A model generated the notes under the pieces. The model had not been told where the DNA came from, searched no databases, and saw only the letters and a list, made by a program, of their open reading frames with translations. Of a stretch of DNA of 64,000 bases, positions 20,284 to 57,407 are shown in pieces. This DNA is from a virus. The translations under genes were made by a program, and so were the position numbers. Numbering within the stretch: position 1 is the stretch's first letter; the number at the start of each line of letters is the position of its first letter. The stretch spans positions 46,070 to 110,069 of IMG/VR virus record IMGVR_UViG_3300032163_000003; one strand, written 5' to 3'.

Positions 20284-20658
20284 CTACACCTCCACCCGTT
20301 TTTCATTTTCTTTCTTTCGTTCTAAGTAATATTCTAAACCACCCCAAAACTTCAACCATCCCATCGGTTTTTTTGGACTTGCAAAATCGTCCATCAATGT
20401 TAACGATACATTTGGAATTTCTTTTATTACTTGATATCTTCCTCTTCCTATCGTTTTTAGATATCCAGCTTTTTGTAGAATCAGTCTATAAGTGTCTCTT
20501 GAATCTAATCTATACCTTCCAAATCGTTTAACATTATTAAAAAACCCTTTTCTGGTTACTTCTTGATTTACTTTAGTATTAAAGAATTTGATAGTTTCTC
20601 GCCATATGTTGTAAGGATTCTTTTTCTTTTTATAAGAACTTACTTCCGTTGAATCCAC
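20284..20658 (-). CDS. winged-helix-like conserved phage protein
   Basis: 124 residues with VTRKGFFNNVKRFGR, DTYRLILQKAGYLKTIGRGRY and IPNVSLTLMDDFA, a pattern typical of a small phage family; the spacing suits a winged helix DNA-binding fold with RGRY as the wing. The GTG start with GGAG upstream lies inside the end of folE2. DNA binding is inferred. Confidence 0.45.
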   Translation of the reverse strand: MDSTEVSSYKKKKNPYNIWRETIKFFNTKVNQEVTRKGFFNNVKRFGRYRLDSRDTYRLILQKAGYLKTIGRGRYQVIKEIPNVSLTLMDDFASPKKPMGWLKFWGGLEYYLERKKENEKRVEV

Positions 20659-21490
20659 CTTGTACTCCTTTCCAGCATGTAGCTATAGCATTTGAAGTAT
20701 GAATATTTTCTTCATGCACACATCGAATAATCCAATCAAAGATTAATTCTTCTTGATTCAAAGCATTACATATTCTTCTTATTGAATCTTCTACAAATTG
20801 CATATTTGATGCAGCGATCCTAGCCACATCTTGTTCGTCCATTCTTCTCAATAGAGGATAAACTTTATTAGATACAGAATTTTCAACTAATTCTATTAGA
20901 GTTTCTAACCAAACAGTATGTTCTGGTTTAACTTCGACTAGTAATTCTGCATAAGCTCTTTGAGCATGAGGTATCCCATTTAGTCCTTTCTCTTTCAAAT
21001 CGTTACATAATGAAAAACTACAAGGACAATATGATGCATAAGGAACACGAACCTTTTGGGTAAATCGAAAATCATCGTAATCTAATCTTCCTGTAAAAGA
21101 ACATTGATAATATTGTGGAAATACTAAATTAGATTTGGGTGCTTTTTTATTTAAGGGCATTTCAAATTCGAATTTGATTAGACTGTGATTAGAATTAGTT
21201 TCTACAGCCGTTTTAAATTCTTTGAGAATATGTTTAATCAAATTATGTTTTAAAGGTTTATCTAAGTAGTTAGAAAGAGTTCTTAGAAGTTGAGACATCG
21301 AGATTCCTTTTATCTTAGGATCTAAGTCAGTTACCATTTCAACTTTAGATACCATTTCATGTGTTCCACCATATAAAGAATCAAGTTTAAAAGGGACTGA
21401 TACATTAGAAACGCCTACTTGGTTGATGTAAATTGGATAGTTTGAAGTTTCTGAATGTTGGATATCTGGAAGATTATCAATATCATTCAT
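20630..21490 (-). CDS. folE2: GTP cyclohydrolase IB (FolE2/MptA family)
   Basis: 286 residues. YCPCSFSLCNDL at about 156-167 carries the conserved Cys, and GIPHAQRAYAEL follows with the metal/catalytic His, both typical of FolE2. The enzyme opens GTP to 7,8-dihydroneopterin triphosphate, the first step to folate and to 7-deazaguanines (queuosine, archaeosine and phage DNA deazaguanines). No QueD/QueC/QueE or folate gene is recognised in this window, so the product could feed host or distant phage enzymes. Confidence 0.75.
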   Translation of the reverse strand: MNDIDNLPDIQHSETSNYPIYINQVGVSNVSVPFKLDSLYGGTHEMVSKVEMVTDLDPKIKGISMSQLLRTLSNYLDKPLKHNLIKHILKEFKTAVETNSNHSLIKFEFEMPLNKKAPKSNLVFPQYYQCSFTGRLDYDDFRFTQKVRVPYASYCPCSFSLCNDLKEKGLNGIPHAQRAYAELLVEVKPEHTVWLETLIELVENSVSNKVYPLLRRMDEQDVARIAASNMQFVEDSIRRICNALNQEELIFDWIIRCVHEENIHTSNAIATCWKGVQGGFNGSKFL

Positions 21491-41698: not shown

Positions 41699-44600
41699 TT
41701 AATCCTTACTATCTAACCCGATTACTTGTAAATACTTGTCAAATAATTTCACAGATTCGGGCACTTTATCTAAAGTTTCTGGTTTCCTGATAAACTCAGA
41801 TTCAACTACAGAACGTATATAGTCATTCTTTAAGTCTGTGCAATCTGACTTGGTAGTTAAAAACTCATGTAAGTTATATGTTGAGCCATGCGCAATCAAA
41901 CATGCTGTTTCCATTTCACCGCATCTTTGTCCACCTCGATTTTTTCTACCACCAAGAGGTTGTAGGGTTCTTTTATTGTAAACTCCAATTCCTCTTCCTG
42001 CTAATTTGGTCTCAGCAATATGGATCATTTTGAAGAAATACATATATCCGACTGCTATTGGATTTAAGACCCAACGATTAGAAATCGAGTCAAACATCTT
42101 ATACTCTGACGGTGTATTTGTATACTCCAATGCTTTCAAAACCATCTCTGCTGTGGTAGATTCAAACGGTGGTTCTACAACTGACAATTTATAAATGAAT
42201 GTTTCATCCACAGTGGTTTTATTTAATTGTTCTTCGAACTGCTTATAGTACCAGTTATCTTCTGTATTATCAATAATTTTTATGTAATCTAAGATGTATT
42301 TCTTTAATTCTTCTTGAGTCTTTTCTTCTGTTAACATAGTAACCAACTGCCGTTTCAAATCAACCAAAGACATCCCAAGATGTAGTTCAAAGATCTGACC
42401 TAAGTTCATTCTGGATATAACACTCAATGGACTGATGCAAATATCTACATATTTTCCATCTTCCATTCGTGGCATTTTTTCTTTTGGAAGAATTTTAACT
42501 ACACCTTTATTTCCGTGACGATTCCCAATTTTATCGCCAACTTCAATCTTTCTCATGTAGATTCCATACATCTCTACATAAACACCTTTAACTTCTTCTC
42601 CTTTGATTTTGTATTTTCTTCCTTTTTCTGTCTTAGAGAACATATTCAAATTATTCTCTTTTAGGAATTTTTTTACATCTTCTGGTGGTAAATGTTCCAA
42701 CAGAGTTTCTTCAATTTTCTTTTCTTCCTCTAGTTGTTTTTCTTTTATCTGTTCCACCCACTTATTATACTCTGGAATTGACCTGTTCCAATTATTTGGA
42801 TAAACTTTTAAATGAAATACGTACGCTGGTTTGTTAAATGAGTGTTTCGTTTCTTCTTCAAAAATAGACGAAAAGTTAACTGGTCCATCTGGTATTTCTT
42901 TCATGACTGCGTATGGAATATTTTCTTGGATGGCTGCTAGTTTAACTCTTTCGTTCTTATTATCTTCTCGATCTAGAATAGGAAGAGGTGTATACTTCTT
43001 TCTGTCAACACTCAAATCTAGAAGAACTTTATTCGGTGGTATTTCAAAAGACAAGTCAACAAAGTGCACGGAAGTAAACATTTGTTCTTGGACTCGTTCG
43101 GAAATGATAATTGAGTCCTCATAATTAAGTCCATGATATGGCATTACCGCTGTTAAATAGTTTCTTCCAAACTTTATTTGACCATTCTCGCAGAAGTTAC
43201 TTTCCGCTAGAATTTGTCCAGCTTTAACTCTTTCTCCAAGTTTAACATATGATGTCATGTAGTCTATATTTTCTACATGTGTATTTCTTATCGATATGTC
43301 AAAGGTATCATAGTCTTTATCGTCATATAAAAGAACTAAAAATTCGTCGTTCAAGAAGATAACTTGCCCATCTTTTCTAGCTACTTTTATGAACTGAGTC
43401 TTGTCAGTATATAACCGCTCGCAACCAGACTCAACCAATGGAAGTTCCGGTTTTTCTAACATAATCGCCTGTCTCATTTGAGAAGACGCCATTTGTAATC
43501 TGGTCTGGTCGTCATGTTCAGAAAATGGAACCATCGAAACCGGAATGGAGATAGTAGATTTCTCTTCTAGTTCTTCAGAAAATCTAAGATTAGGATCTAG
43601 TTTCGTATTAACTAAAAGGTTCTGCAGAACTCCACAGTTTTCCCTATCTGGTGTATCTACTGGACAAATTCTTCCAAACATTGATGGCCACAAGTCCCGT
43701 AAATGAACCGGAACATTTTCTTTTGTAAAACCATCTGGACCAACTAAACTTATTCTAGTTAGTTTAGATAACTCGTCAATCGGATTGATTGAAAAATCAA
43801 ACTGAATTATATTTGAGACGTTACAATCTTGGATGATTTGCTTTGAATTTACATTAAATTTTGGACTGCTTGATTTGAAGCACGCCAAACATAAGTTAAA
43901 CAAGTTCTTTGCAATTTTGGATAAAACTACATACTCAAAGCATCTAATTCTTTTATTTCTATAATCTTTATCGTCAACTGGATTTGAAATCGCATATAAC
44001 AGTTCTTCTATAACAGAATCTTTATGGAAAAACTGACTGCTCATTAAGTCAATTCTAGGAAGAAGATCTAAGGAGTATATTATTTTCTCCCCCCTTGTTA
44101 GGGGATCGATCGTTGAGTAATTTTTTCCTACATCGGTAATGAAATCTTCTTTACTATATCCAACTGATGATTCGTGATAAACTTTTAAGTCATATAAAAG
44201 TTTATCAGCGATGGAACTAGAATCTGTAATTATTGGCGCCTCAATTTTGTCTAATTCAAATCTTTTTTCAATTTCTTCGTATCCATAATATGCGAATAGA
44301 AGAATTGCAAAAGGAATTTTCTTACCCAAAATTGTTACATAGACGTAATCTACAAAAGTTGAGTCTGGCTCTTTTCTATGAGAAACCATTATAGTTCCAA
44401 CATTCGTTCTTAGTTTAATATCAGCTCCTCTTGTAACAATTGGAATATCAAACAACTGGAAAATTGGAACCTTCTTCTTTCCAGAAACTTTGATATAGTT
44501 TCCATCAACCAGTTTTGGAATCGCCATGGACAAATCAAAGTCGTGATTCCCTTTGCCAAGTAAAATAACTATACTTTTCTTTAAAGTTTTTTCAAGTTCG

Positions 44601-44773
44601 TCTGTTGATGGTCTTAAATCTTTAATCTCAAACTCTTTAATTACAAAACCAGAATCTTCTACTGGTCTTAGCATTTCTCGAATCTTGTCTTTTAGCTCGA
44701 GATATTCCTGTTCTCTAATTTTGAAAATATCTAAACTATTTTTTATTACAAAATTTGGATTTACTATTTTCAA
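41699..44773 (-). CDS. rpoB: multisubunit RNA polymerase beta subunit
   Basis: 1024 residues, shorter than bacterial RpoB (about 1340) but covering both lobes. Landmarks: MFGRICPVDTPDRENCGVLQ, AVMPYHGLNYEDSIIISER, GDKIGNRHGNKGVVKILPKE (about 745-764) and RTLQPLGGRKNRGGQRCGEM then the TTKSDC end, all parallel to RpoB. Unlike phiKZ-type phages, it is one chain rather than split in parts. With beta-prime next door it should form a phage RNA polymerase. No alpha, omega or sigma gene is recognised here. An endonuclease ends 38 nt inside its start. Confidence 0.9.
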   Translation of the reverse strand: MKIVNPNFVIKNSLDIFKIREQEYLELKDKIREMLRPVEDSGFVIKEFEIKDLRPSTDELEKTLKKSIVILLGKGNHDFDLSMAIPKLVDGNYIKVSGKKKVPIFQLFDIPIVTRGADIKLRTNVGTIMVSHRKEPDSTFVDYVYVTILGKKIPFAILLFAYYGYEEIEKRFELDKIEAPIITDSSSIADKLLYDLKVYHESSVGYSKEDFITDVGKNYSTIDPLTRGEKIIYSLDLLPRIDLMSSQFFHKDSVIEELLYAISNPVDDKDYRNKRIRCFEYVVLSKIAKNLFNLCLACFKSSSPKFNVNSKQIIQDCNVSNIIQFDFSINPIDELSKLTRISLVGPDGFTKENVPVHLRDLWPSMFGRICPVDTPDRENCGVLQNLLVNTKLDPNLRFSEELEEKSTISIPVSMVPFSEHDDQTRLQMASSQMRQAIMLEKPELPLVESGCERLYTDKTQFIKVARKDGQVIFLNDEFLVLLYDDKDYDTFDISIRNTHVENIDYMTSYVKLGERVKAGQILAESNFCENGQIKFGRNYLTAVMPYHGLNYEDSIIISERVQEQMFTSVHFVDLSFEIPPNKVLLDLSVDRKKYTPLPILDREDNKNERVKLAAIQENIPYAVMKEIPDGPVNFSSIFEEETKHSFNKPAYVFHLKVYPNNWNRSIPEYNKWVEQIKEKQLEEEKKIEETLLEHLPPEDVKKFLKENNLNMFSKTEKGRKYKIKGEEVKGVYVEMYGIYMRKIEVGDKIGNRHGNKGVVKILPKEKMPRMEDGKYVDICISPLSVISRMNLGQIFELHLGMSLVDLKRQLVTMLTEEKTQEELKKYILDYIKIIDNTEDNWYYKQFEEQLNKTTVDETFIYKLSVVEPPFESTTAEMVLKALEYTNTPSEYKMFDSISNRWVLNPIAVGYMYFFKMIHIAETKLAGRGIGVYNKRTLQPLGGRKNRGGQRCGEMETACLIAHGSTYNLHEFLTTKSDCTDLKNDYIRSVVESEFIRKPETLDKVPESVKLFDKYLQVIGLDSKD

Positions 44774-45908
44774 TAGTTGAGTCTCCTTTCTGGAGAAGAG
44801 TTGTTAGTTCTAATTTACTACTAACAACTCTTTTTTGTTTTACAATATTTTTAAAGAAACTTTCTAATTCTACTGATTTTATTTCTTTAATTAACTTTTT
44901 AAGAGAAATTGAGCAATTCTCTCGCTTACTTTTATTAGATAATTCTGGTATTACTTCTAAATTCTTCCAGTGACTTATTATTTTAGGGTGTACCTTATTT
45001 TTGAATCCCTGAAATATTGAGAATTTGTGGTCCAAGTTGTTGGTTTTACTTCGTAAACTAGAATGTGGAATTTTATCTTTATGTAGTTTGAAAGAGATAT
45101 AAGTTTCTTTTTCTACATCTTGTTTATATCTTGCGTAGATAGATAGTATTTCTGGATCTTTCTTTCTATAGTACTGAGGACAGGTTTTCTTACAAATATT
45201 TGAGCAATACATAAATCCATGTCCATATCGTTTATCTTTTACTTGTAAGGTTTTAGCTCTCCAGTAAATTTGATATGATGCTGGTTCAAACCAAGTTCTA
45301 CACACTTTACATCTAACTAAGATCTTTCCGTTTTCTTCTTTAATCTCCTCAAATTCAGAAAACCATGGATATCGTTTTGAGAACCTTTTGAATGTAAGTT
45401 TTGCTTGTTTCTTTCCCTTCATTCTAATGCTAATAGAAAGTTTAATCTCATCAGTATGTGTTTTATTAAACATTGGATGATTAAATCCAACCATTTTTCC
45501 TTTAACTCCAGCACCAATCTTTAATTTAATTATTGGGCATGAATTCTGAATTTCTGAACAACACAATTTTTCATTTTTTAGTTTGTATTTGGCAACATTT
45601 CCACAACCATAAAAACATAATATATTTTCTGTATTTTCGAGCTTGCAGCTTTTGTGTCGATTCCCTGTTTTCTTTCCTTCATGTTTTTCTCGATTTTTCT
45701 TTTTTGATTCTTTAGTGTGGTGCTTTCCATACATTGAATTCTTAGACCCTGGATTTCCGTATAACTTTCTAACAGATGAACATTTTCTGTAACTTTCACT
45801 GCAGCAAAATTTCTCTTGTAGTCCAACTTTAAACTTTGCCAACTGTCCACACCCATATCCACAGTAAATAGTTCCATCATTTTCAATTTTATAACTAATT
45901 TCCTTCAT
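44736..45908 (-). CDS. HNH homing endonuclease between rpoC and rpoB, two YGCG modules
   Basis: 390 residues. Two copies of the Cys module (IYCGYGCGQLAKFKV...FCCSESYRKCS and ILCFYGCGNVAKYKL...LCCSEIQNSCP), NUMOD3-like segments (SKNSMYGKHHTKES), a Cys4 zinc region (RCKVC...YCSNICKKTC), and an HNH-like end NNLDHKFSIFQGF...NLEVIPELSNKSK. It starts at the stop of rpoC and ends inside rpoB, so it depends on the RNA polymerase operon. Confidence 0.7.
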   Translation of the reverse strand: MKEISYKIENDGTIYCGYGCGQLAKFKVGLQEKFCCSESYRKCSSVRKLYGNPGSKNSMYGKHHTKESKKKNREKHEGKKTGNRHKSCKLENTENILCFYGCGNVAKYKLKNEKLCCSEIQNSCPIIKLKIGAGVKGKMVGFNHPMFNKTHTDEIKLSISIRMKGKKQAKLTFKRFSKRYPWFSEFEEIKEENGKILVRCKVCRTWFEPASYQIYWRAKTLQVKDKRYGHGFMYCSNICKKTCPQYYRKKDPEILSIYARYKQDVEKETYISFKLHKDKIPHSSLRSKTNNLDHKFSIFQGFKNKVHPKIISHWKNLEVIPELSNKSKRENCSISLKKLIKEIKSVELESFFKNIVKQKRVVSSKLELTTLLQKGDSTIENSKSKFCNKK

Positions 45909-48628
45909 TAAATTATCTCTCCACGAAGGATTTTATTTAGAATACCTTTATATTCTCCAGAATAAAGAATTCCTTGTAGAATATGTTTCTTTGGGTCAGA
46001 AAATCCAACACCGAGAAGCCAGTTTTCTTTTTCTGGAACGCTTTGTACACTATAAAAGATCGGTGCTACTGTATCTCTAACTTCTAGTAATCTCCACTTC
46101 TTATGACCAACCCACATCATCTGCGCAACAATGCATTCAAAATGAACATGGTAAATAGCTCGTTTATCGTTATACACTTTAAATAATTTCGCAACTGTTT
46201 CATGGGGTTTGTGCTTTCCACCAGATTGATGTAATAAATTTGACGCTTCTGACAAATCTGCTACGATATCTTTCTGGACCATTTCACCGTCTTCATCATC
46301 TTCTTTTGTTTGTCCTTTTGTTTTTGCTGCACCGCTTGTGTGGAATGTGCGCAGGATCAACTGCGTATTGGCTTCTCCAAGGCTCTGCGCTGCAATAATC
46401 CCAATATACTTACTATGTAAATTCTTTAGATCGCCATAACACTTTTTACAGACTTCTGGCGATTTACAAAAGATCGGACTTCGAACATAGATAAGTTTGT
46501 TAACGAAAGATACACAATTCTCAGGAGTTATTAGTTCTAACTTTTTATCTTTTGTTATATGGTATTTATAAACTAGCATTTTTGCTTTTCTCTCATCATT
46601 AACATAAACTTCGAGGGTATCTTCAGTTTCACAATCATCTAATGTTTCACTCATCTGCAAATTGGCGCAGGTAAATATTAGTTTTCTAGAAAGATATCCA
46701 GATGCTCCAGTTTTTAAAGCAACATCAAGAAGACCTTTTCTAGACCCATAAGAAGACGTAAAAAATTCTCTTTGAGTAAGTCCGTCTAAATAACTATTCT
46801 TAATTGGAATTGGAACAATCTGACAATCATAATTAGAAACAAATCCTCTAGTTAGAACTATCTGTCGAACTTGTTCCCAACTACCTCTAGCACCAGATTC
46901 TACCATATAAGAATAAGCAAAGTTCTTTTTCAGAAGATTCTCAATTTCCTTACTTTCGATAAGTTGCTGTTGTCCGAACATGTCATCAGCTTCGTATATT
47001 TTATCTCGAATTTTATCATGATCTTTAATTCTACAAGACGCTAGAGACAACGTTGTTCCGAATAATGTCGCATACTCAAAACCAAGTTGTTTGATATTGT
47101 CTAAAACAATTTTAGTAACATCTTCATTGTATTTTTCTTTAACATCAGTAAGGATAGAAATCAACTCTTTCTTTCTTACTGGTTTGTTAACTAAAGGATA
47201 ATCTTTTGGAAGATACTCATTAAACGTATAAATTCCTTCTGTAACTTCTTCCCCTTTATACATTAGTTTTTTCTGTAAGTGCGGAAATTTATTTGCTGTT
47301 AAAGCATAAACTCCAAGAATAATATCTTGACTTGGAAGCGTAGATAACTCTCCATTCGCTGGATTTGTAAGATTTTTAGTAATTAGAAATTTATCTGTTA
47401 TTTCTTGTTTTGCTTCTTGAGTAATTGGAATGTATACGGCCATCTGATCGCCGTCAAAGTCCGCATTATATCCGCTACAAACTAAAGGATGAATTTTAAT
47501 TACGTCATCCATTGTAACTTTAATTTTAAATCCAATCATGCTTAGTCTGTGTAGAGATGGTTGTCTATTTAGTAAACAAACTTCTGTCTCAGCCATCTTT
47601 TCACAAGTTTGAAACAAATCCAAGTTTTTAGAATTTATGGATTCATCGATAAAATCCACCGCTTCATTTAAAAGTTTAAATCTTCCCTGTTCAATTAACT
47701 TTTGTGCAATTGGGAGTTTATAAATCTCCAAGAAAACTAAATACGGTATGTAACACTCATCCAGATTAAGAGTTGGATCTGGTGTAATAATCGCTCTACC
47801 AGAAAAGTCAATTCTTTTACCTAGAATATTTTTCCTAATTAATCCTTCTTTTTTAGAAAGTTTTGAGATAATAAAATCATACAAAGTATCTACTACTTTT
47901 TGAAGCTTACTATAATACGCATAGAATAACTGTGGGCTATTCAATACGTTTACAGCTGTTCGCGCCATAGTAACTTTATTTTGTAGAATGTACATATAGC
48001 ACTGATTGATTGTATCTGCTCTCCAAAAACTTTTCTCAATATCTTTTGTTGTTGGTCTTAAATCTGGTGGTAACACTATGATATAATTAATAATTAACTT
48101 ATCAATATTATTCTTGATGATTCTCCAGTTTCTATCAATTTGTCCTAGTTTAGTAGATGAATCCTTAATCAGTTCATAAACAGCTTCTAATTTATCCCAA
48201 CTTCTTTGCGCCTGTGATGGCACACTTCCGCGATTTGTAATTACCAGTTCTCCATTTGTATCCAAATACAAAACTTTGTCTTCATTTTTCAAAAGACTAT
48301 CAATCATTTCTCTTAACTGGGATTTACTAACACTCATAATCAAATCATAAAACAATGGATTGATTACTGGGATTGGAAGTACAATTCTAGCAAATCTTTT
48401 CCTTCTTTCATCTGCACTTACAATATCTACATGACAGATGCTACAAGTTCCACCCGATTTTGAAATTCCATGATATGTACCGCATTGACAAGTATAATTT
48501 TTTAATGGTCCAAAAATCTGCTCAGAAAATAATCCTTCTGGGTGGAACTTCTTTTTATTCATGACTTTTTCTGTAGTGACTTCTTTTAAGTCTTTACAAA
48601 ATTCATTAATATCAAGAAGTTTTGGCAT
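45908..48628 (-). CDS. rpoC: multisubunit RNA polymerase beta-prime subunit
   Basis: 906 residues with the beta-prime landmarks: zinc ribbon YTCQCGTYHG...TCSICHVDI near residue 50-70, LGKRIDFSGRAIITPDPTLN, CLLNRQPSLHRLSMIGFKI, the catalytic NADFDGDQ at about 388-395, a trigger loop GSRKGLLDVALKTGASGYLS and GIIAAQSLGEANTQLILRTF near the end. All three catalytic Asp are present. Shorter than bacterial RpoC (about 1400) with reduced insertions. Partner of the neighbouring beta. Confidence 0.92.
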   Translation of the reverse strand: MPKLLDINEFCKDLKEVTTEKVMNKKKFHPEGLFSEQIFGPLKNYTCQCGTYHGISKSGGTCSICHVDIVSADERRKRFARIVLPIPVINPLFYDLIMSVSKSQLREMIDSLLKNEDKVLYLDTNGELVITNRGSVPSQAQRSWDKLEAVYELIKDSSTKLGQIDRNWRIIKNNIDKLIINYIIVLPPDLRPTTKDIEKSFWRADTINQCYMYILQNKVTMARTAVNVLNSPQLFYAYYSKLQKVVDTLYDFIISKLSKKEGLIRKNILGKRIDFSGRAIITPDPTLNLDECYIPYLVFLEIYKLPIAQKLIEQGRFKLLNEAVDFIDESINSKNLDLFQTCEKMAETEVCLLNRQPSLHRLSMIGFKIKVTMDDVIKIHPLVCSGYNADFDGDQMAVYIPITQEAKQEITDKFLITKNLTNPANGELSTLPSQDIILGVYALTANKFPHLQKKLMYKGEEVTEGIYTFNEYLPKDYPLVNKPVRKKELISILTDVKEKYNEDVTKIVLDNIKQLGFEYATLFGTTLSLASCRIKDHDKIRDKIYEADDMFGQQQLIESKEIENLLKKNFAYSYMVESGARGSWEQVRQIVLTRGFVSNYDCQIVPIPIKNSYLDGLTQREFFTSSYGSRKGLLDVALKTGASGYLSRKLIFTCANLQMSETLDDCETEDTLEVYVNDERKAKMLVYKYHITKDKKLELITPENCVSFVNKLIYVRSPIFCKSPEVCKKCYGDLKNLHSKYIGIIAAQSLGEANTQLILRTFHTSGAAKTKGQTKEDDEDGEMVQKDIVADLSEASNLLHQSGGKHKPHETVAKLFKVYNDKRAIYHVHFECIVAQMMWVGHKKWRLLEVRDTVAPIFYSVQSVPEKENWLLGVGFSDPKKHILQGILYSGEYKGILNKILRGEII

Positions 48629-49193: not shown

Positions 49194-49517
49194 CTACTTT
49201 ACTATTTTAAATTTTTCCCACGGTTTAAAGTAAGAGTAAGTTAAGTTATAAGTACAAATCAACGAAACTATCATTGGAAGTCCATCAACTTCGAACGGTC
49301 TTCCAACTACCTTATCAGATAAACAAAGAACATTCGTACCAGGATCTGCGTTTGGATGTTTCCCGTCTATAACTACTTTTTCAATATTTCTATTTTCATC
49401 CAGGTATACTTCAAATCCTTTGATCCAAAGACTCTTGTCTAGTTCTATCATTTCATAAATTTCGCCGGCGAATATTATCTTATCTGGAATCATTTTCATT
49501 TTCTTTTTTATTATCAT
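49194..49517 (-). CDS. small E2-like (UBC/RWD fold) candidate
   Basis: 107 residues. KHPNADPGTNVLCLSDKVVG resembles the E2 catalytic HPN......CL segment, putting the candidate thiol at about Cys70; a C-terminal ICTYNLTYSYFKPWEKF helix region resembles the N....Y..P ending of prokaryotic E2-like proteins. Nine bases downstream of a ThiF-like gene, the expected partner. Too short for a full E2, so it may be a minimal form or an unrelated beta-rich protein. Confidence 0.45.
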   Translation of the reverse strand: MIIKKKMKMIPDKIIFAGEIYEMIELDKSLWIKGFEVYLDENRNIEKVVIDGKHPNADPGTNVLCLSDKVVGRPFEVDGLPMIVSLICTYNLTYSYFKPWEKFKIVK

Positions 49518-49525
49518 AACTTCCC

Positions 49526-50401
49526 CTACGCTACTGCTTGTTCTGCGATCAATTCAATGGTCCTACTTCTTTCGTTTATCAGGATTACATAATTTTTGTA
49601 ATCAAGTGGATTAATCATTGTTATGAGACTTGAGATAACATCATTAAAAGACTTGAGAGCATTTTTTGGAAAGGGTTTCTGTGAGACAGGAAACTTTTTA
49701 TTTCCAACGTATATAATCACTCTAGATAATTTATTCATAAAAATAATTGGATCGATACAATCCAGTAGATTTGAAAATCTTTCTATCTCTTTTGAAGAAA
49801 CGTCGAATAAAATATCTTTTCTTTTAGTTAGTTGATTTAGACTTCTAGACATCATTGTTTCCAGGTAGTCTAACTCAATCGCGTAAACTTTCTGTTTTTC
49901 AACCATCTTTTCAATTAGGTTCTTTCTTACCAAAGACCCAGCAAATTCTGCTGCATCAATTACGTCTTTTCTCTCTATACTTAGAGGATATGTTCCAACG
50001 TAGTTCCTTCTATATTCCACAGATTTTCTACAATCCACCAACAAATATCTTGAAGAGATAGACAATCTGGCGTCAATTGAATCTTTTCTATCATATGTAA
50101 AATCTCTACAATCAACAACTAAATCTGTCTTTGGTAATTTAGTTACTCCCTCTTCAAATTTCTTATTGAATTTTACTACTTTAATATCTGTATTTCTTTC
50201 TTTAATCAGTTTTTCTAAAGCGTCAACTTTTGCTTTTCCTACATCCTCCTTTCTATATGGTGACAATTTTAGATTTTTTTGTTGTACCGTATCATAATCT
50301 ACAATAACTAGTTTCTTAATATTTTCTAGTTTAGATAGATTATCACAAAAATAACTTCCTAATGATCCTAATCCAACTACAGTCACGTTTTGGATCAACA
50401 C
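49526..50401 (-). CDS. second ThiF/E1-like adenylyltransferase
   Basis: 291 residues from a GTG. VTVVGLGSLGSYFCDNLSKL at residues about 6-25 is the nucleotide-binding glycine loop, VIVDYDTVQQKNLKLSPY is the acidic strand and N..R segment, as in ThiF/MoeB/E1 proteins. The second half is unlike known E1 domains. With the E2-like gene just after, it may form a separate E1-E2 pair. Which ubiquitin-like partner it uses is unknown; no second beta-grasp gene is visible nearby. Confidence 0.65.
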   Translation of the reverse strand: MLIQNVTVVGLGSLGSYFCDNLSKLENIKKLVIVDYDTVQQKNLKLSPYRKEDVGKAKVDALEKLIKERNTDIKVVKFNKKFEEGVTKLPKTDLVVDCRDFTYDRKDSIDARLSISSRYLLVDCRKSVEYRRNYVGTYPLSIERKDVIDAAEFAGSLVRKNLIEKMVEKQKVYAIELDYLETMMSRSLNQLTKRKDILFDVSSKEIERFSNLLDCIDPIIFMNKLSRVIIYVGNKKFPVSQKPFPKNALKSFNDVISSLITMINPLDYKNYVILINERSRTIELIAEQAVA

Positions 50402-50488
50402 TGCACCTACCTTTCTTTCTTGAATTTTGTCGTAAGATAGTTTGGTAGAAAATAACTGAATTACTTTTTAGTATATAATATGTAGATG

Positions 50489-50521
50489 TGAGAGACAAGA
50501 ACTTTTTGTCCTTGTCTCTCA
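50489..50521. terminator. 11-bp hairpin between the two ThiF cassettes
   Basis: TGAGAGACAAG/CTTGTCTCTCA with an 11-nt loop, seven bases after the stop of the upstream gene. A T-run follows on the plus-strand side only, so as a minus-strand terminator it is imperfect; it may stop antisense transcription or stabilise mRNA ends. Confidence 0.4.
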
Positions 50522-50527
50522 TTTTAT

Positions 50528-50989
50528 TTATGCTGCGATTTTCTTTGGTGTTAGAATGTTAACTTCTTTTTCAGTTGGGGTTGGGTTGAACTCCGATTTG
50601 TATATGAATAACTTTACAGCTTCTTTAAGAGGATAATTTAAAGGAATTCTCACCCCATTCTTTCTTACGAGAATTGTTTCTAAAGAAACATCTCCAATCG
50701 TTATAGTAAAGCGGTCTGGATTAATTTCGTCGGCAGATTTCGATGAAAGAACTGCTTTTAGAGCTCTCCCAAAGGATCTGTCTCTAGCATCTTTTTTATT
50801 GTGCATATCCATAACTGAACAAATAGATACTCCTCTCGAAAGAATTTTTCCTTCTTTTGAAAGAAGCAAGCAAACAGTAAAGACGTTTCCAACTATAGGA
50901 TCTTTATCACTATAGTAGAATTTAATTTTGTCTACTCCCGTTGCTTTTAATTTTGAAACAACTTCCGGCTTCATATTTGTCGTAAACAT
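50528..50989 (-). CDS. hypothetical protein in the ubiquitin-like cassette
   Basis: 153 residues. VFTVCLLLSKEGKILSRGVS followed by ICSVMDMHNKKDARDRSFGR and a helix: a beta-strand pair and D-x-x-N-K-K-D-A-R segment I have seen in conserved phage proteins of unknown role. Lies between the ubiquitin-like gene and the hairpin at 50.5 kb. No catalytic motif recognised. Confidence 0.45.
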   Translation of the reverse strand: MFTTNMKPEVVSKLKATGVDKIKFYYSDKDPIVGNVFTVCLLLSKEGKILSRGVSICSVMDMHNKKDARDRSFGRALKAVLSSKSADEINPDRFTITIGDVSLETILVRKNGVRIPLNYPLKEAVKLFIYKSEFNPTPTEKEVNILTPKKIAA

Positions 50990-51013
50990 TTTGTTATCCT
51001 CTTTTTTCTTTTC

Positions 51014-51484
51014 TCACCCCTTGTCACCAGCGGGCTTCAAGAATTCTAGGTTGTCTCCAGATTTAAGAATATACTCTCCGTTAACGCTCTTCCCATTAAC
51101 CAACCCAGTTGTCAGGTCGCTAATGCTGAATGCGTCTTTTAGGAGAGCAGCCACTGCCGCCACACTCTTTCCAGCAACGTTAAAGAAGTCACTAGAAGCA
51201 CCGCAAGAAACTCTCACTGTGGTAGTAGTTCTCTGACCCGCCGGAGCTTTAGGATCAGTTAAAGTTGTGAAGAATGTTCCCGATACTCCCTTTGCTCCAC
51301 CAACTACTGGACCTGGTTCAGGAAGTTCATCTTCTTCTACTTCTTCTACTTCCTGTCCATCTATAAGAGCTGCGATGACGTCGTCTTTTCTCCGCTTGCT
51401 CATTCCGAGAATACCTTCATCCCGGCACATTTCACGTAATTCAATCAGTGTGTATGCTTCCAGCTGCTCGTACGTATAAGACAT
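51014..51484 (-). CDS. SAP domain-beta-grasp ubiquitin-like protein (PRTRC-C-like)
   Basis: 156 residues. Residues about 5-45 (YTLIELREMCRDEGI...KDDVIAAL) form a SAP/Rho-N-like nucleic-acid-binding helix-loop-helix, joined by an acidic/Pro-Gly linker to a beta-grasp domain (TTVRVSCGASSDFF through SGDNLEFLKPAGDKG). The exposed C-terminal Gly and the AGDKG end match ubiquitin-like proteins that need no processing, close to the GTKG ends of PRTRC protein C. Its ATG overlaps the TAA of the E1 gene (TAATG), so the two are made together. Confidence 0.6.
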   Translation of the reverse strand: MSYTYEQLEAYTLIELREMCRDEGILGMSKRRKDDVIAALIDGQEVEEVEEDELPEPGPVVGGAKGVSGTFFTTLTDPKAPAGQRTTTTVRVSCGASSDFFNVAGKSVAAVAALLKDAFSISDLTTGLVNGKSVNGEYILKSGDNLEFLKPAGDKG

Positions 51485-52212
51485 TACATCCTCCTACTTT
51501 TGTTTTTTGTTGTTCTGACTTTTGCGTCCGACTTCATTTTTTCAATGTCAAAATATACTTCACATGGTACTACAGGTTTGTCCTCTGCAACTGAATTATA
51601 GAATGACCAGCACATTATTGTTGCAGCAGTAAGATTTGCGAAAAACAACTGGGGAGTTGAAGATGCAGCAAGTTCTTCACAACTCATTTCGTCTGGTGAT
51701 TTGTCTTTTGGAGTTTCAATTTCAGGATGGTAGTCAGTTAGACTTGGGGTTATATCCTTTCCATCTTTGCGGATATATGTTTGTACATTCCCGTCTATAA
51801 AGTCATTCCCTCCAGAAATTAAGATAACATTCTGCAGTTCTTCAGCGAAGTCAGATACTAACTTCCTAGTTTTATGGTTATCAACGCATAAAAAGATAAC
51901 ATCTTCACCATTTAAAACTTCGCGAATGTTTGAGAAGTTAACGTACTCTCCAAAAGTTTCGAAATCTAAGTTTGGATATTCTCTTTTCAAATCAGTGCTT
52001 TTTACAACTGCTTTGTTTCCAAATGTTCCAAACTCTTGTCTTTGCAAGTTCTTCTCTTCGTACTCATCCCCATCAATTAATTTAATCCTACTTCCATGAA
52101 AACTTGGAGCGTAGTTTAAGAATCTGCTTATCTTCTCAGATAAGATACTTCCGATACCACCTAGACCAACTATTGATATATTTCGTTTCTTTCTTGAGTA
52201 ACTAGGTTCCAT
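51484..52212 (-). CDS. ThiF/E1-like adenylyltransferase (PRTRC ThiF-like)
   Basis: 242 residues. ISIVGLGGIGSILSEKISRF (glycine loop, about 13-32), IKLIDGDEYEEKNLQRQEFG (Asp and N..R segment, about 43-62) and VIFLCVDNHKTRKLVSDF: the E1/ThiF core that adenylates a ubiquitin-like C-terminus. The C-terminal MSCEELAASSTPQLFFANLT contains a Cys that could be the thioester site. Overlaps the JAB gene by 11 nt and the ubiquitin-like gene by one base. Confidence 0.75.
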   Translation of the reverse strand: MEPSYSRKKRNISIVGLGGIGSILSEKISRFLNYAPSFHGSRIKLIDGDEYEEKNLQRQEFGTFGNKAVVKSTDLKREYPNLDFETFGEYVNFSNIREVLNGEDVIFLCVDNHKTRKLVSDFAEELQNVILISGGNDFIDGNVQTYIRKDGKDITPSLTDYHPEIETPKDKSPDEMSCEELAASSTPQLFFANLTAATIMCWSFYNSVAEDKPVVPCEVYFDIEKMKSDAKVRTTKNKSRRM

Positions 52213-53179
52213 GTGATTCCCCTATCAATTTCTTTTCTTCTGTTGGCTTAAAAGACTTGAACGCACACGTACCGCAAGGATTAAATTCTTTTATCACTCT
52301 CCTTTCTTGTTTTATATCTCCAGGCTTAGGAAGAATGTCCCGGAGAGTTGTTATATTTTCACCGAATGTTCCTAGTTCTTCATCCCACCTCCCATAGTCA
52401 AATGTAACTATTTCTTGTTTGGCTGGTTTAACTGAACCTATCCAGTTTGGATTATATCTTTCGAACTTCTTAGACCATTTAACAAATTTGTATCCCTCTT
52501 CATAACTCGGTTGTGTAAACAACGGAATATTTTCCAAGTCTTTAAACAAGTGAGTATAGTAGGGACTTCGATATATCGTTATTTCTGGTTTCTGAACTTC
52601 TTCTTGGACTTTTTGAATTCCATCGATATAATTCTGTGGTTCAACTTTAAATCTAGTTCCACCAACTACAATAGAAGCAACTATTTCAAATATAGGTTTC
52701 TTAATATTTCCAACTGTGATATGCAGACCGTCAGAATCTTTCTCATCCCCAACATCAATACTAGAATGTGACGCTGAAAAACTAGGATGACTATGGATAG
52801 TTGATAATCTTACATATCCTTCCATTGATGGGATTCTTATGTACTTTACGCTTGCTCCAGATACTTCCTGGGGAGGAATTATTATACGAAACTTTTTCTT
52901 TGTCTCGTTATAGTAAAGTATCGCATTACATTCTGAATGATACATATCATAAATTTTTCTGAAGAAAGTTATAATTCTTCCAAAAGTTCTTAGAGGAATT
53001 TTTGGAATATGTAACTTGGCGTATGGTTTTATTTCTTGTAGAAAAGATACCCCACTAACTTTTGTTATACTTTCAACTATTCCAACTTTCTTCTTTAGAA
53101 ATAATCCATTCTTCGAAATAATGTAAAGAATCTTATCATCTGGCAAGTTTGAACCATCATTTAAAACTACTTTAAACAT
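52202..53179 (-). CDS. JAB/JAMM peptidase (PRTRC-A-like)
   Basis: 325 residues from the ATG at 53179, chosen for its GGAGGTGAA site. JAMM metal motif STIHSHPSFSASHSSID gives H129, H131 and D142 with Ser139, and an upstream Glu (SECNAIL) is a candidate catalytic acid. It would be a zinc isopeptidase that trims or removes the ubiquitin-like protein. The C-terminal third ends with NPCGTCAF, a possible extra metal or Cys site. Confidence 0.75.
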   Translation of the reverse strand: MFKVVLNDGSNLPDDKILYIISKNGLFLKKKVGIVESITKVSGVSFLQEIKPYAKLHIPKIPLRTFGRIITFFRKIYDMYHSECNAILYYNETKKKFRIIIPPQEVSGASVKYIRIPSMEGYVRLSTIHSHPSFSASHSSIDVGDEKDSDGLHITVGNIKKPIFEIVASIVVGGTRFKVEPQNYIDGIQKVQEEVQKPEITIYRSPYYTHLFKDLENIPLFTQPSYEEGYKFVKWSKKFERYNPNWIGSVKPAKQEIVTFDYGRWDEELGTFGENITTLRDILPKPGDIKQERRVIKEFNPCGTCAFKSFKPTEEKKLIGESHGT

Positions 53180-53190
53180 TTCACCTCCGA

Positions 53191-55752
53191 TCATAGTATG
53201 ATGTTTTTTGATACTTCTGGATTTGAGTACCAACTGAACATATCTGGTACTACGTCTTGGGGTATATTCTTCATTCTTTGTGGTATAAGACCGTAGAAGT
53301 AGAAGTTTTGATACTTAGGAAATCCAGGTGTATTATACTTAACCCATTTTGTATTTGTGGAAAATAGTACTCGTTTCCATGTTCTTCTCCCATCAAAGAA
53401 AGTATGATACATTAAATCATAAGTGTCGTAATCGTAAGTAGAATTTCCCAGAACGTCTCCAAACTGTGGTGTAAACTTTGGAGTAAATTCATATCCAGAA
53501 GTGAGAGGCGGAGACGCATTAAACGCAAACAATCTCCTATTGCTTTCAGTTAACCAGAACGTATGAAAGTTACTACACAAAACTAAAGGAACATCAGTAT
53601 CCACTATAAAAGCGGAAATCCTACAAGGTTTCGATTTTAAGAAACCCGCCACCCTTTGTTTTGGAGTTACTTCCATTCCGATGGTTAAACCATCAACTGA
53701 GTAACTAGCTTTTCTAATACATCCTACTGATACTACTCCATGATATGCTTCAAAGATTGGAAATGTTTGCTCTGTATTCTTATCATCTCCAATTGTAGTA
53801 GTTACTTCAATTTTCCTTCCAGTCGCATTGAATATAAATCCAGTAATTTTTCTAATCTTTAAAAGATCTCGTGGAGAATTCCACGAAGTAGCAATTACAT
53901 TATCACCAACTCTTAAATCAATATCTACATCACAAGACGGAAGAAAAAATCTTTTTCCGTCTTCAAGAAGCATCTTTGGAATATGGCTTGCCCAGTTATA
54001 GTATTCAGTACTAAAGTAATTAACACGGTTAGGAATAATAACATCTCGATTTTTTGTAATAAAGATTATCTGTGAATCGTCCGATACTACAACTTTGTTT
54101 CCAATCCGAACTGCTGGAATAGGCAGAAGTTCTTCTTCAATCTTTTTAATTGTATCAGAAATTTTTCCTAAAACATTAATTTTTATATTACTTTTTGTAG
54201 TATCTATTTTTGTAAAACAAAGCTTTCCCTCTTTAAAGTCTTCAAATGTGCACATACTACCCATAAATATTTTTCTTGGAAGATGATCAGATGCTTTAAT
54301 TAAGAATTTATCCCCTTTTTGAAACTTAATTCCTTCAAATTCTAATTTGTCTTTATCAATAATATCGAAATCTACAAAGTCCATTAGGTATACAACTTGT
54401 CCACACTTCATCTCTGAAAGACCATCCCTTGATATTCTTACTTCATCAGCGCTCAGAAGTTTTTCGTATCCAGGAACTTTAAACGCTATTAGATCTCCTT
54501 GTTTAATTGTCTTTCCGTTCTTAGTAACTATAGAATTAAGAGGTTTCTTTTTCAAAAAGTTAATTATTTTTCTCTTTAACCTAACATCGATCTTATGTTC
54601 CGATTTACTTCCCTCTTCATCTTCTAGTTCTAGCTGATCAATATAATCTTTTGTAGATTTCAAAGCACTGATGTAGTAATTCTTCTTGTCAATGACTAGT
54701 TGATCTCCTACACTAATGGTGAAAGTCTGTGAACTGTCATTGACTGAGTCCTCATGATTCAACTCTTCATCTTCTTCCTCATAAGATTTAAGTTCCTTAG
54801 ATTTAAGATTTCTATCATCTAAGAAAAAACTTTCTGCCATTGATCTTTCAATACCTAATTTTTTACCTCTTTGACCAGAAATAATTTGTTGTATCTTCTT
54901 AATGACTGGTTCATCTAAACCATCTTCATTTTTGGAAGAATTCATACCAATTTCTACAAACAGATTTCTTTCATGCTGAAACCATGGAACTTTAAAAACA
55001 AACATTGGATCTACTTTTGAGAAGTACTGCCATTCAAGTAAATTTCCAATTTGTGGAACATCTTTATACATCATGTGAGATGAATGATAGTCACGATTAA
55101 AGTTATTAAGCCACACCCTATTCAGTACATGGTCAATTCTTTCTGATAGAGTAACTTTTTCTTGAAGAGGTCCAAGAGATTCTATAGCTTTATCTGACTC
55201 ATGCCCTCGTATGCACATAGTTCCATTAGCTTCTACATTCAACATATTGGATTTTAACAGAAAATCATGAACACTTGTTAGAGGAGCAGTTCTGTAGAAT
55301 ACCCTGCATCTGCCGTATCTTAGATCAAACGTAAGGTCAATGATAAAAATTACATATGGAAAAGCAAGTCTCAAAACATGTGGTGGTTTTCCAAGTTTGT
55401 AATTTTTGTATCCGTACGCTTCTACCTTTCCTTCTTGCTTTAACGACTCAAGAGAAAAAGATAGGTCTAGATCAACTCGTACTGATCTAGTAACTGGGCT
55501 TTGTTCAATTACTAAACAAACATTATTATTCCACGGAGTAAAAGAAAAGTGACGACAATTTTTTGGAAGAACATCTGGACAATTAAAACCAATAAAACTT
55601 TCTGATAGAAGATTAATCAATGTCTCAGACTCAACCATCGATTGTCTTCTAAATGGGAGTACTTTATTTGTTTTATCTGTTATGAATTCTATTGAGCTAG
55701 TGTATTTGTCCAACAAAAGTACGCCGCTCTTTAACTGAGTTTCTTCATTCAT
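53191..55752 (-). CDS. large protein with N-terminal E2-like domain (PRTRC-B-like)
   Basis: 853 residues. In the first 220, VFYRTAPLTSVHDFL, then MLNVEANGTMCIRGHE with Cys180, then VWLNNFNRDYHSS match the order of PRTRC protein B (APFFNV..G.VC.G...W...F.S.FTH), an E2-like fold. So Cys180 is the likely thioester cysteine. Residues about 350-850 are acidic then beta-rich repeat-like domains (VGDQLVI, QGDLIAF, KGDKFLI, VGDNVIA), probably barrels, with no recognised relative. Such a fusion would bring conjugation to a large binding platform, perhaps RNA polymerase or virion. Overlaps neighbours. Confidence 0.6.
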   Translation of the reverse strand: MNEETQLKSGVLLLDKYTSSIEFITDKTNKVLPFRRQSMVESETLINLLSESFIGFNCPDVLPKNCRHFSFTPWNNNVCLVIEQSPVTRSVRVDLDLSFSLESLKQEGKVEAYGYKNYKLGKPPHVLRLAFPYVIFIIDLTFDLRYGRCRVFYRTAPLTSVHDFLLKSNMLNVEANGTMCIRGHESDKAIESLGPLQEKVTLSERIDHVLNRVWLNNFNRDYHSSHMMYKDVPQIGNLLEWQYFSKVDPMFVFKVPWFQHERNLFVEIGMNSSKNEDGLDEPVIKKIQQIISGQRGKKLGIERSMAESFFLDDRNLKSKELKSYEEEDEELNHEDSVNDSSQTFTISVGDQLVIDKKNYYISALKSTKDYIDQLELEDEEGSKSEHKIDVRLKRKIINFLKKKPLNSIVTKNGKTIKQGDLIAFKVPGYEKLLSADEVRISRDGLSEMKCGQVVYLMDFVDFDIIDKDKLEFEGIKFQKGDKFLIKASDHLPRKIFMGSMCTFEDFKEGKLCFTKIDTTKSNIKINVLGKISDTIKKIEEELLPIPAVRIGNKVVVSDDSQIIFITKNRDVIIPNRVNYFSTEYYNWASHIPKMLLEDGKRFFLPSCDVDIDLRVGDNVIATSWNSPRDLLKIRKITGFIFNATGRKIEVTTTIGDDKNTEQTFPIFEAYHGVVSVGCIRKASYSVDGLTIGMEVTPKQRVAGFLKSKPCRISAFIVDTDVPLVLCSNFHTFWLTESNRRLFAFNASPPLTSGYEFTPKFTPQFGDVLGNSTYDYDTYDLMYHTFFDGRRTWKRVLFSTNTKWVKYNTPGFPKYQNFYFYGLIPQRMKNIPQDVVPDMFSWYSNPEVSKNIIL

Positions 55753-56090
55753 TTCTCCTCCTGAATATACTTCTTTAAATTATCTAAAACACCTGTTAAT
55801 AATTTTGAATATTCTGTCGTTGGTTTTGTAGTTAGTTTCTGAAAAACAATGTCAAGAGTAGATTCTAAAAAGTTTGAAATTAGATCTTCTTTTTCATTCT
55901 TTGCAAGTGGATACATCATTACTTTATCTTTGGTAATATCTATCCCTTCAAATTTTTCTTCGATGTTTTCGAACTTCAATCCACAAATTCTTAGAATACA
56001 ATATCCGTCACAAGTATTTATCCATATTGCGCCATTCTCCTGATCTACTTTGATTTCCATTATTCCATGAATGGGTTTAGAGATTGTCAT
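55749..56090 (-). CDS. hypothetical protein
   Basis: 113 residues; beta-rich first half (GAIWINTCDGYCILRICG), helical second half. Directly before the E2-like gene with a 4-nt overlap, so likely part of the same operon. Not recognised. Confidence 0.45.
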   Translation of the reverse strand: MTISKPIHGIMEIKVDQENGAIWINTCDGYCILRICGLKFENIEEKFEGIDITKDKVMMYPLAKNEKEDLISNFLESTLDIVFQKLTTKPTTEYSKLLTGVLDNLKKYIQEEK

Positions 56091-56381
56091 TTATTTCACC
56101 GCAGTTCTTACTTCTCCCTTATACACAAGGGATTTGAATGGAAGACTTCTCCAATCGTTTTTCTCTGTATCAAAAACGCGAAGAATTTCATTCTTTGTCA
56201 TTTGTTTTAGAATTTCTTGAAGACTAGTTTTCTTCGGTTTCTTATCTGGAGGAATTTTGTTAAAGTTTAGAGTACATTTCATTACTCTTCTTTCGCCATT
56301 TTTCTTGATAAACTCCACTTCAACTAAGTCATTCTTTTGGAGTTTATCTAAAAAGTACATCGCTGCGCCTAAAGTAGACAC
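56091..56381 (-). CDS. SH3-fold small protein, DUF2693-like
   Basis: 96 residues. VEVEFIKKNGERRVMKCTLN and ILRVFDTEKNDWRSLPFKSL match the phage family with F.KKDG..R.M.CTL and D.E...WRS, DUF2693-like. Function unknown. Confidence 0.6.
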   Translation of the reverse strand: MSTLGAAMYFLDKLQKNDLVEVEFIKKNGERRVMKCTLNFNKIPPDKKPKKTSLQEILKQMTKNEILRVFDTEKNDWRSLPFKSLVYKGEVRTAVK

Positions 56382-57407
56382 TTACTTTCTCCTTTCTGAA
56401 TGAGTTAAATCATTAAACAAATTTGGATTTTCATTCGTCAATTTACTCATGCACATACACGTCCAGTTACAAAGTTTACAATATTTCTTTTTATCTTCTT
56501 CTAAATTTTCTTTAAGATTTGAATTTAATTTTCCACATTCATCTAAATAGTCTACTAATCTAAAAGATGGCGTTTTACTCCCGCGAATTCTCAAGCAAAG
56601 TCTCACGGTCCCATTAGAATCAATAGTCAAATTATGGACGCCTTTTTCAATTTCGCAATCCAAATCAGAAGGAAGACTTTGATATATCTTAGGTAGTAAC
56701 AAAGTTTTCATATGAATATTAACTTCGTCGTCATCGTCTAAAACGTTTAAAATTGGTAGTGCTTCTTCTTTACTTACTAACATACTCTCATCTGTTACAT
56801 TTGAAAAATCATAGTGCTGAGATTTTGCAATATCAAGAAAAGTTATAGAACTACTTATTCCTCGTTTGGTTAATTCTTGAACTAAAGGATATAAATATTT
56901 TATGTTATATTTGTCTACTGTTATTTCCGCAACAAGATCCTTTACTTTATCTCGATATTGATACAGTCTTTCTAGACCCGCCAAACTCTTTTTCACAATA
57001 TCTCCAGTAGTCTCTTTATCAAAAATTATTGGATCAACAGACGAAGTTAATCCTTCGAGATAACCTACTTTGTCAAACAGATTAGCAATTCTCTTTTGGA
57101 CTTGCTCTGAGTTATTCGTTATGACTGTATAGAAAATTTTATTGTCATGACAATACTGAATAATTTCTGACAAGTCATCTCGAAGTGTTGGTTCTCCCCC
57201 ATAGAATATCATAAAGCAATCTGGATTATGTAACTTTAATCTTTTTAAACTTTCTAATATAAAGTCTAGAGACATTTCATTCTTTAAATAATAATCATAT
57301 GGGGGATATTCTTTTGGTTGATTATAGGAGGACGCTATTCTACAATAAGAACATTTCAAATTACATTTTCTCGTAACAATCCAATTAACAATTCGAACTT
57401 TTCCCAT
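56382..57407 (-). CDS. radical SAM protein with SPASM-like C-terminus
   Basis: 341 residues. CNLKCSYCRI (Cx3Cx2C, about residues 14-21) binds the 4Fe-4S cluster; MIFYGGEPTLRDDL is the GGEP motif. The C-terminus has CEIEKG, VRLCLRIRG and CKLCNWTCMCMS, a Cys set like SPASM or twitch domains holding auxiliary clusters. Such proteins often modify peptides. It sits next to the ubiquitin-like cassette; a target among the small proteins here is possible but unproven. Confidence 0.75.
   Translation of the reverse strand: MGKVRIVNWIVTRKCNLKCSYCRIASSYNQPKEYPPYDYYLKNEMSLDFILESLKRLKLHNPDCFMIFYGGEPTLRDDLSEIIQYCHDNKIFYTVITNNSEQVQKRIANLFDKVGYLEGLTSSVDPIIFDKETTGDIVKKSLAGLERLYQYRDKVKDLVAEITVDKYNIKYLYPLVQELTKRGISSSITFLDIAKSQHYDFSNVTDESMLVSKEEALPILNVLDDDDEVNIHMKTLLLPKIYQSLPSDLDCEIEKGVHNLTIDSNGTVRLCLRIRGSKTPSFRLVDYLDECGKLNSNLKENLEEDKKKYCKLCNWTCMCMSKLTNENPNLFNDLTHSERRK

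Follow-up and report, generated by a model that had tools for sequence, protein, structure and literature searches.

A block of genes directly ahead of the RNA polymerase genes of a tailed phage probably encodes two ubiquitin-like conjugation pathways, and the likeliest substrates of these pathways are RNA polymerase or the proteins around it. The block lies on the - strand of a 64,000-nucleotide stretch of viral DNA (the window), which covers positions 46070–110069 of the 110-kb IMG/VR record IMGVR_UViG_3300032163_000003. The source is a tailed phage: the record encodes a large terminase, a T4-like baseplate, a tail spike and virion genes, and the window carries 22 tRNAs, SbcC/SbcD, a DNA ligase and an RNA ligase. 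A first-pass annotation, made from the letters of the sequence, had named six open reading frames (ORFs) at 49194–55752 as a ubiquitin-like conjugation cassette resembling the PRTRC systems. All six are found there, on the - strand. The block consists of a conjugating enzyme (E2)-like protein, a JAB/JAMM protease, an activating enzyme (E1)-like protein (ThiF1), a SAP/Rho_N domain fused to a ubiquitin-like protein (Ubl), a second E1-like protein (ThiF2) and a small E2-like protein with an HPN...C motif, followed by rpoC and rpoB. Two small ORFs lie between the last of the six genes and rpoC.

53191–55752, - strand: E2-like protein, 853 amino acids (aa); domain of about residues 1–260 of PRTRC-B/Prok-E2_D type, then a long C-terminus modelled as tandem SH3/KOW-like barrels
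52202–53179, - strand: JAB/JAMM metalloprotease (PRTRC-A-like), 325 aa; TIGR03735 match and invariant site residues
51484–52212, - strand: ThiF1, E1-like adenylating enzyme; PF00899, TIGR03736
51014–51484, - strand: SAP/Rho_N-like domain and beta-grasp Ubl, 156 aa; Rho_N, ThiS, terminal KG
50528–50989, - strand: conserved 153-aa protein; homologues at the same position in several relatives, that is, in a subset only
49526–50401, - strand: ThiF2, E1-like with a C-terminal beta-grasp-like domain; AlphaFold2, E1 structural matches
49194–49517, - strand: small E2-like protein, 107 aa; UBC-type HPN....C active-site motif
45908–48628, - strand: rpoC, phage RNA polymerase beta', downstream of the block; PF00623 at 6.5e-34 and further Rpb1 domains
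41699–44773, - strand: rpoB, phage RNA polymerase beta; PF00562 at 6e-45
55749–57407, - strand: conserved genes upstream of the block, namely a 113-aa protein, a WYL_2/Sm-like protein (56091–56381) and a radical SAM protein (56382–57407); synteny, PF10902, PF04055

A conserved gene order beside rpoC

The position next to rpoC and rpoB, which the annotation had pointed out, recurs in related viruses. About 11 contigs from the first scans share one constant order: radical SAM protein, WYL_2 protein, 113-aa protein, E2, JAB, ThiF1, Ubl, (153-aa protein), ThiF2, 107-aa protein, rpoC and rpoB. A scan with rpoC yielded 73 distinct rpoC loci. The clade was taken as the loci whose rpoC shares 49% identity or more with that of the window and which have at least 6.5 kb of upstream sequence (37 viral contigs). 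All six core genes stand before rpoC in 34 of these 37; the exceptions are L112, without ThiF2 and the 107-aa gene, L125, without the 107-aa gene, and L107, without the block. That one gene set precedes rpoC in an unchanged order in 34 distinct related contigs goes beyond chance.

Among the ten closest relatives, identity is 48–58% for ThiF1, 53–58% for rpoC and 24–28% for the large E2. By its conserved order, and with ThiF1 conserved about as well as rpoC, the block is ancient and subject to selection; it is linked to this polymerase without being strictly required alongside it. Five contigs (L146, L152, L155, L157 and L159) carry a second rpoC, about 30% identical, alongside the cassette-linked rpoC or its close kin, that is, two RNA polymerases per phage.

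The putative tag, its protease and its activating enzyme

The putative tag is the 156-aa protein. It ends in AGDKG as first read, and the proposed fusion of a SAP domain to a Ubl is borne out by family profiles. Its N-terminus matches PF07498 (Rho_N) at 4e-6; across the family, Rho_N is found at the N-terminus of 12 of 13 members and ThiS at the C-terminus of 6 of 13. The beta-grasp fold, on which the annotation had staked its reading of this protein, finds support in this profile evidence. With hhalign, other Ubls from phages align to it at 2e-7.

All 42 Ubls of the clade carry KG at the C-terminus, bare in 25, followed by an extra Cys in 11 and by other tails in the rest, while distant Ubls end in KG plus 0–3 residues. 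One relative (L130) has two SAP-Ubl units in tandem, each closed by AGRKG. Outside the clade, in the cultured Bacillus phage vB_BauM_KLEB27-3 (OM634661.1, gp199; L072:2718-3425) four Ubls of about 57 aa, each ending in AGVKG, stand head to tail before a short tail, and the gene for this polyubiquitin-like precursor adjoins PRTRC_A, E2 and ThiF genes. Vibrio phage D69 (OZ195729.1; L006:5295-6086) has three tandem Ubls, each ending in GTKG, together with E2, JAB and a ThiF ORF whose first part is seemingly absent. Six further loci (L029, L033, L035, L038, L046 and L059) hold ORFs with two KG-type motifs and an end that reads RTGTKG or nearly so, in the neighbourhood of JAB-E2-ThiF sets; these are probable di-Ubls. 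Poly-Ubls and extra residues past KG point to maturation of Ubl precursors by JAB. The pattern of tails and tandems is the one expected of a ubiquitin-like precursor matured by a JAB protease.

The JAB motif itself is present (IHSHP.......S..D). Since relatives begin MF(K/S)V, the start is better placed at the ATG at 53179, and the annotation's numbering of H129 and D142 (with H131) fits the resulting 325-aa form. The site residues E83, H129, H131, S139 and D142 are invariant in 50 of 50 homologues and in 44 of 44 from the polymerase clade. Against PRTRC_A (TIGR03735) the protein scores 36.2 bits (E 4e-9), so that it is homologous but under the cut-off of 101.8. JAB is predicted to mature the Ubl and to remove it from targets. 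A scan of bacterial genomes with JAB matched two contigs of metagenome-assembled genomes.

ThiF1 matches PF00899 at 1e-18 and PRTRC_ThiF (TIGR03736) at 45.9 bits (E 4e-12), again under the cut-off (144.75). Its adenylation site is intact and C178 is the candidate catalytic Cys. GxGG, D47, D49, N55, R58, Q59, K67, D111 and C178 are invariant in 48 of 48 homologues, and the same residues are kept in 43–44 of 44 from the polymerase clade.

An E2-like protein with a modelled Spt5-like tail

The 853-aa protein has the motifs described for it, NVEANGTMC and then W..NF: the first ends at C180, and W214 and N219 follow. The key residues of the domain are the catalytic C180 plus N172, W214, N219 and D221. 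N172, C180, W214 and N219 are invariant in 39 of 39 E2 homologues, and the equivalent of C180 is also kept in 24 short E2s. By itself the protein has no family match in profile searches, and TIGR03737 (PRTRC_B) has none in the window's record; relatives match TIGR03737 at 8e-12 and 3e-4, and 6 of 13 close homologues match Prok-E2_D (PF14460), the best at 1.3e-4. The N-terminal profile aligns with a short phage E2 family at 7e-9 (hhalign). In that family one member exceeds the curated cut-off of PF14460, 13 of 24 match it at E <= 0.01, and one member matches PRTRC_B at 8e-12. Single-sequence scans of viral contigs with the 853-aa and 107-aa proteins returned no close relatives; their relatives were reached only via the JAB, ThiF2 and rpoC scans.

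In the AlphaFold2 model the N-terminal domain runs from a helix through strands to the N172–C180 loop and further helices, an order compatible with UBC. Foldseek with the full-length model returned no UBC fold among the top matches, and because the tail dominates these matches they do not decisively establish the fold. The UBC fold around C180, which the annotation had made a test of its reading, is thus favoured by E2 family membership and a compatible model, while a decisive structural match is lacking. Neither of the two outcomes that the annotation had named as refuting it was seen, and its reading as a whole largely holds, with corrections.

The long beta-rich region fused to this domain is modelled as tandem SH3/KOW-like barrels, which sharpens the first reading, and its internal repeats give only modest profile matches (1.3e-4 and 1e-3). 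Its best Foldseek matches in the PDB are chain Z of two RNA polymerase II pre-termination complexes (5e-7, probability 0.99, TM 0.13). Chain Z is Spt5 with its KOW domains (PMC11832416). Tandem Tudor domains rank after Spt5, and a NusG sequence match is weak (E = 0.08). Apart from Rho, nothing informative came from PDB sequence profiles for the two E2-like proteins and the Ubl. The modelled Spt5-like tail hints at docking on RNA polymerase.

E2-like genes are duplicated in tandem in L018 (a 527-kb contig), L096 and L125; the cassette of L018 has neither ThiF2 nor an RNA polymerase in its vicinity. The same E2 family is carried by the Paenibacillus peoriae plasmid NZ_CP011513.1 (L071) and about 57 further plasmid records, some also with ThiF/JAB. 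These plasmids are large and mostly non-mobilizable, many are from Bacillota, and they are possibly phage-plasmids.

A second pair with its own putative tag

The second ThiF-like protein and the small protein that follows it (107 aa, HPN........LCL) bear out the doubled E1/E2 of the annotation. ThiF2 matches PF00899 at 9e-18, and its E1 domain (residues 1 to about 210) matches MoeB, MccB, ThiF, UBA5 and Cap2, with structural matches to Cap2, MoeB, ThiF and UBA5. What the annotation did not contain is a putative tag on ThiF2. AlphaFold2 models strand-strand-helix-strand-strand at 228–286, the beta-grasp order, with a predicted local distance difference test score of about 73–95 by blocks. The C-terminal domain spans about 226–287 and closes with a tail of the G-[AGS]-A type, which reads AVA in the window. 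The last residue is Ala in 44 of 45 sequences, with Gly two residues earlier in 42 of 45. For the cGAS of CBASS, the conjugated C-terminal residue is Gly or Ala (PMC10097602).

Seven deeper relatives, whose rpoC is 38–43% identical, have the two parts as separate genes. An E1 part of 175–200 aa is followed by a separate ORF of 84–116 aa, the HPN-Cys protein and rpoC, and the separate ORF ends in TGAA, TGTA, NSA, SSA, DAA and similar. The free domain matches the fused one in position, length and tail. Since ThiF2 carries a C-terminal beta-grasp-like domain that ends G-[AGS]-A, the second set may be read as an E1-Ubl fusion and its E2. In the 107-aa protein, HP(N/H) and Cys are kept in 39 of 39 clade members (33 by a strict pattern, 6 by eye) and in 17 of 17 of the alignment. 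The protein has no family match in profile searches. Neither the small against the large E2 family nor the ThiF2 tail against the Ubls of the first pathway gave a significant hhalign match, and a scan of bacterial genomes with ThiF2 gave no match. One ORF (L132) that matched both Ubl and ThiF2 is probably a frameshift, in which a truncated Ubl runs into ThiF2, and was not used.

Proposed mechanism and its alternatives

Our observations concern the components, their conserved active sites, the Ubl tails, the gene order and the linkage; the following scheme extends them to chemistry, partner assignment, targets and effect. In the first pathway, JAB would trim the SAP-Ubl, or tandem SAP-Ubls, to the C-terminal Gly. 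ThiF1 would adenylate the Ubl and then hold it as a thioester on C178, from where it would move to C180 of the E2 domain and on to amines of the target. JAB would also take the Ubl off again. In the second pathway, ThiF2, E1-like and with its own beta-grasp and Gly/Ala tail, would partner the HPN-Cys E2 protein. Conjugation could be steered to nucleic acid and RNA polymerase elongation complexes by two attachments, the tag's SAP/Rho_N domain and the E2's Spt5-like barrels, and the likeliest substrates would be the phage (or host) RNA polymerase or its neighbouring proteins. The simplest idea that would account for the Spt5-like tail, the tag's SAP/Rho_N domain and the place of the block ahead of rpoC is that the machinery docks on RNA polymerase, and it seems plausible that the polymerase is a conjugation target. 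A more specific version can be put forward only tentatively: phages of this clade may modify their own RNA polymerase, or proteins bound to it, by two dedicated pathways, one with a DNA-binding SAP-Ubl and an E2 that rides the elongation complex by its Spt5-like barrels, the other with a self-contained E1-Ubl fusion and a UBC-type E2. We know of no earlier transcription-linked ubiquitin-like system from a virus of bacteria.

Several points weigh against tagging at the polymerase by two pathways. A close relative (L107) lacks the block. The TM-score of the Spt5 match is low (0.13), a consequence of barrels being matched piecemeal. When the ThiF2 tail domain is compared with its free counterpart, the profile match is modest (E = 3e-4), and no known Ubl matches the domain at the sequence level.

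One could also argue that the same machine is aimed at host factors, in defence or host takeover, or at virion proteins, and that adjacency to rpoC reflects shared expression timing only. We consider this possible but clearly less likely. A minimal four-gene form (Ubl-JAB-E2-ThiF) is carried by other phages whose records, which may be incomplete, show no such RNA polymerase, and systems with E1, E2 and JAB parts serve host–phage conflict, as in CBASS (PMC10097602). Against this reading, 34 of 37 contigs keep adjacency and order despite protein identity down to 24–58%, and it is the polymerase-linked form that shows the long barrel tail and the SAP-like domain among the sets compared. Somewhat less probable is a reading without a second conjugation pathway, in which a pseudo-E1 (ThiF2) and an E2-like scaffold (the 107-aa protein) would team up with ThiF1 and the large E2, in the manner of the heterodimeric E1s of eukaryotes, and the beta-grasp of ThiF2 would be an E2-recruiting ubiquitin-fold domain. 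Canonical eukaryotic E1s do have a ubiquitin-fold domain. Moreover, ThiF2 lacks the otherwise strictly conserved E1 active-site Arg and its Asp varies (D41/N4), which also counts against an independent second pathway; ThiF2 might need ThiF1 or be an inactive, non-catalytic partner. The corresponding list for MoeB is G41, R73, K86 and D130 (PMC12355090). Yet a recruiting domain has no need of the near-invariant G-[AGS]-A end, the domain is a free small protein with a like end in deeper relatives, and HPN and Cys are kept throughout in the small E2. A sulfur-carrier system like ThiS/ThiF, for example for tRNA modification, is very unlikely. The Ubl is closest to ThiS/MoaD-type families, ThiF1 is MoeB/ThiF-like and there are 22 tRNA genes, but none of the genes examined encodes a rhodanese or sulfurtransferase, the Ubl tail is KG rather than GG, and an E2 with an invariant Cys, a JAB and poly-Ubl precursors are unnecessary for sulfur transfer.

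Further features of the window and related records

An ORF like NUMOD3 and homing endonucleases lies between the beta' and beta genes (window 44736–45908), and a phage folE2-type GTP cyclohydrolase I is found at window 20630–21490. In L078:3964-6249 an RtcB RNA ligase is split by an intein with an HNH endonuclease. In many of 26 Bacteroides crAss-like phage records (H26-H44), a protein with a ThiF domain bears the annotation "thiamine biosynthesis protein".

Significance

In prokaryotes, most of what is known of ubiquitin-like tagging comes from bacterial operons and from bacterial defence against phages. A cascade that is conserved and catalytically intact, carried by phages and tied to their RNA polymerase would, if true, turn the usual roles around, and would offer a simple system in which to study ubiquitin-like control of transcription. 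Our results suggest that protein tagging serves phages as a means of controlling transcription or the host. The system is testable, since two phages that carry short cassettes, Bacillus phage KLEB27-3 and Vibrio phage D69, are in culture. Three features bear on the evolution of ubiquitin systems: the fusion of an E1 with a Ubl, the division of that fusion into two genes in relatives, and the poly-Ubl precursors of phages.

Comparison with known systems

Searches of an open library of papers, whose coverage excludes subscription journals and preprints, turned up no work on Ubl systems of phages that are PRTRC-like or linked to polymerase. The nearest relatives are the PRTRC systems (TIGR03734-03738; PF14460), whose JAB (PRTRC_A), E2-like (PRTRC_B/PF14460) and ThiF proteins are related to those of the window. 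All scores of the window's system stay under the curated cut-offs, however. The PRTRC_C Ubl has no match in the window's record and only weak repeats in a Bacillus phage, and PRTRC ParB has no match in the 110-kb record, which is possibly a fragment. With PRTRC_A and ThiF under the cut-off and PRTRC_C and ParB not found, we do not file the system as PRTRC. Conversely, it adds the SAP-Ubl, the barrel-tailed E2, the second pair of E1-Ubl and E2, and the linkage to RNA polymerase. The complete conjugation/deconjugation system claimed at first stands as a catalytically complete set of Ubl, E1, E2 and JAB; judged by sequence models, it is PRTRC-like in its working and outside PRTRC by the curated ones.

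Bacterial operons of types 6a–6e (PMC1779556) and Bub/Bil also unite E1, E2, Ubl and JAB, and type 6e operons have one to three Ubl repeats (PMC1779556). The window's system differs in being phage-borne, with the E1 apart from JAB, an E2 of family D, a SAP-Ubl, a KOW-like E2 tail and two sets. CBASS Cap2/Cap3 is similar in that the E1 domain of ThiF2 is structurally close to Cap2 and that either Gly or Ala can serve as the conjugated end (PMC10097602). However, E1 and E2 are separate genes in the window rather than a Cap2-type fusion, the ThiF2 tail is that of a beta-grasp-like domain fused to the E1, and no CD-NTase is among the block's proteins. The TAPI/TAPK tail genes of lambda-type phages likewise encode a JAB protease together with a Ubl (PMC1779556), but they come without E1/E2 and sit in a tail cluster with NlpC, whereas the cascade described here is full and adjoins RNA polymerase. 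ThiS/ThiF sulfur carriers differ in ending GG instead of KG, and the window's system has an E2. Spt5/NusG shares the tandem SH3/KOW-like barrels of the phage E2 tail, whose best Foldseek match is Spt5 at a low TM-score; the phage tail has no identified NGN domain and is joined to an E2 domain. What is new here is the putative tag borne by ThiF2 (the E1-Ubl fusion) and the Spt5-like barrel tail on an E2.

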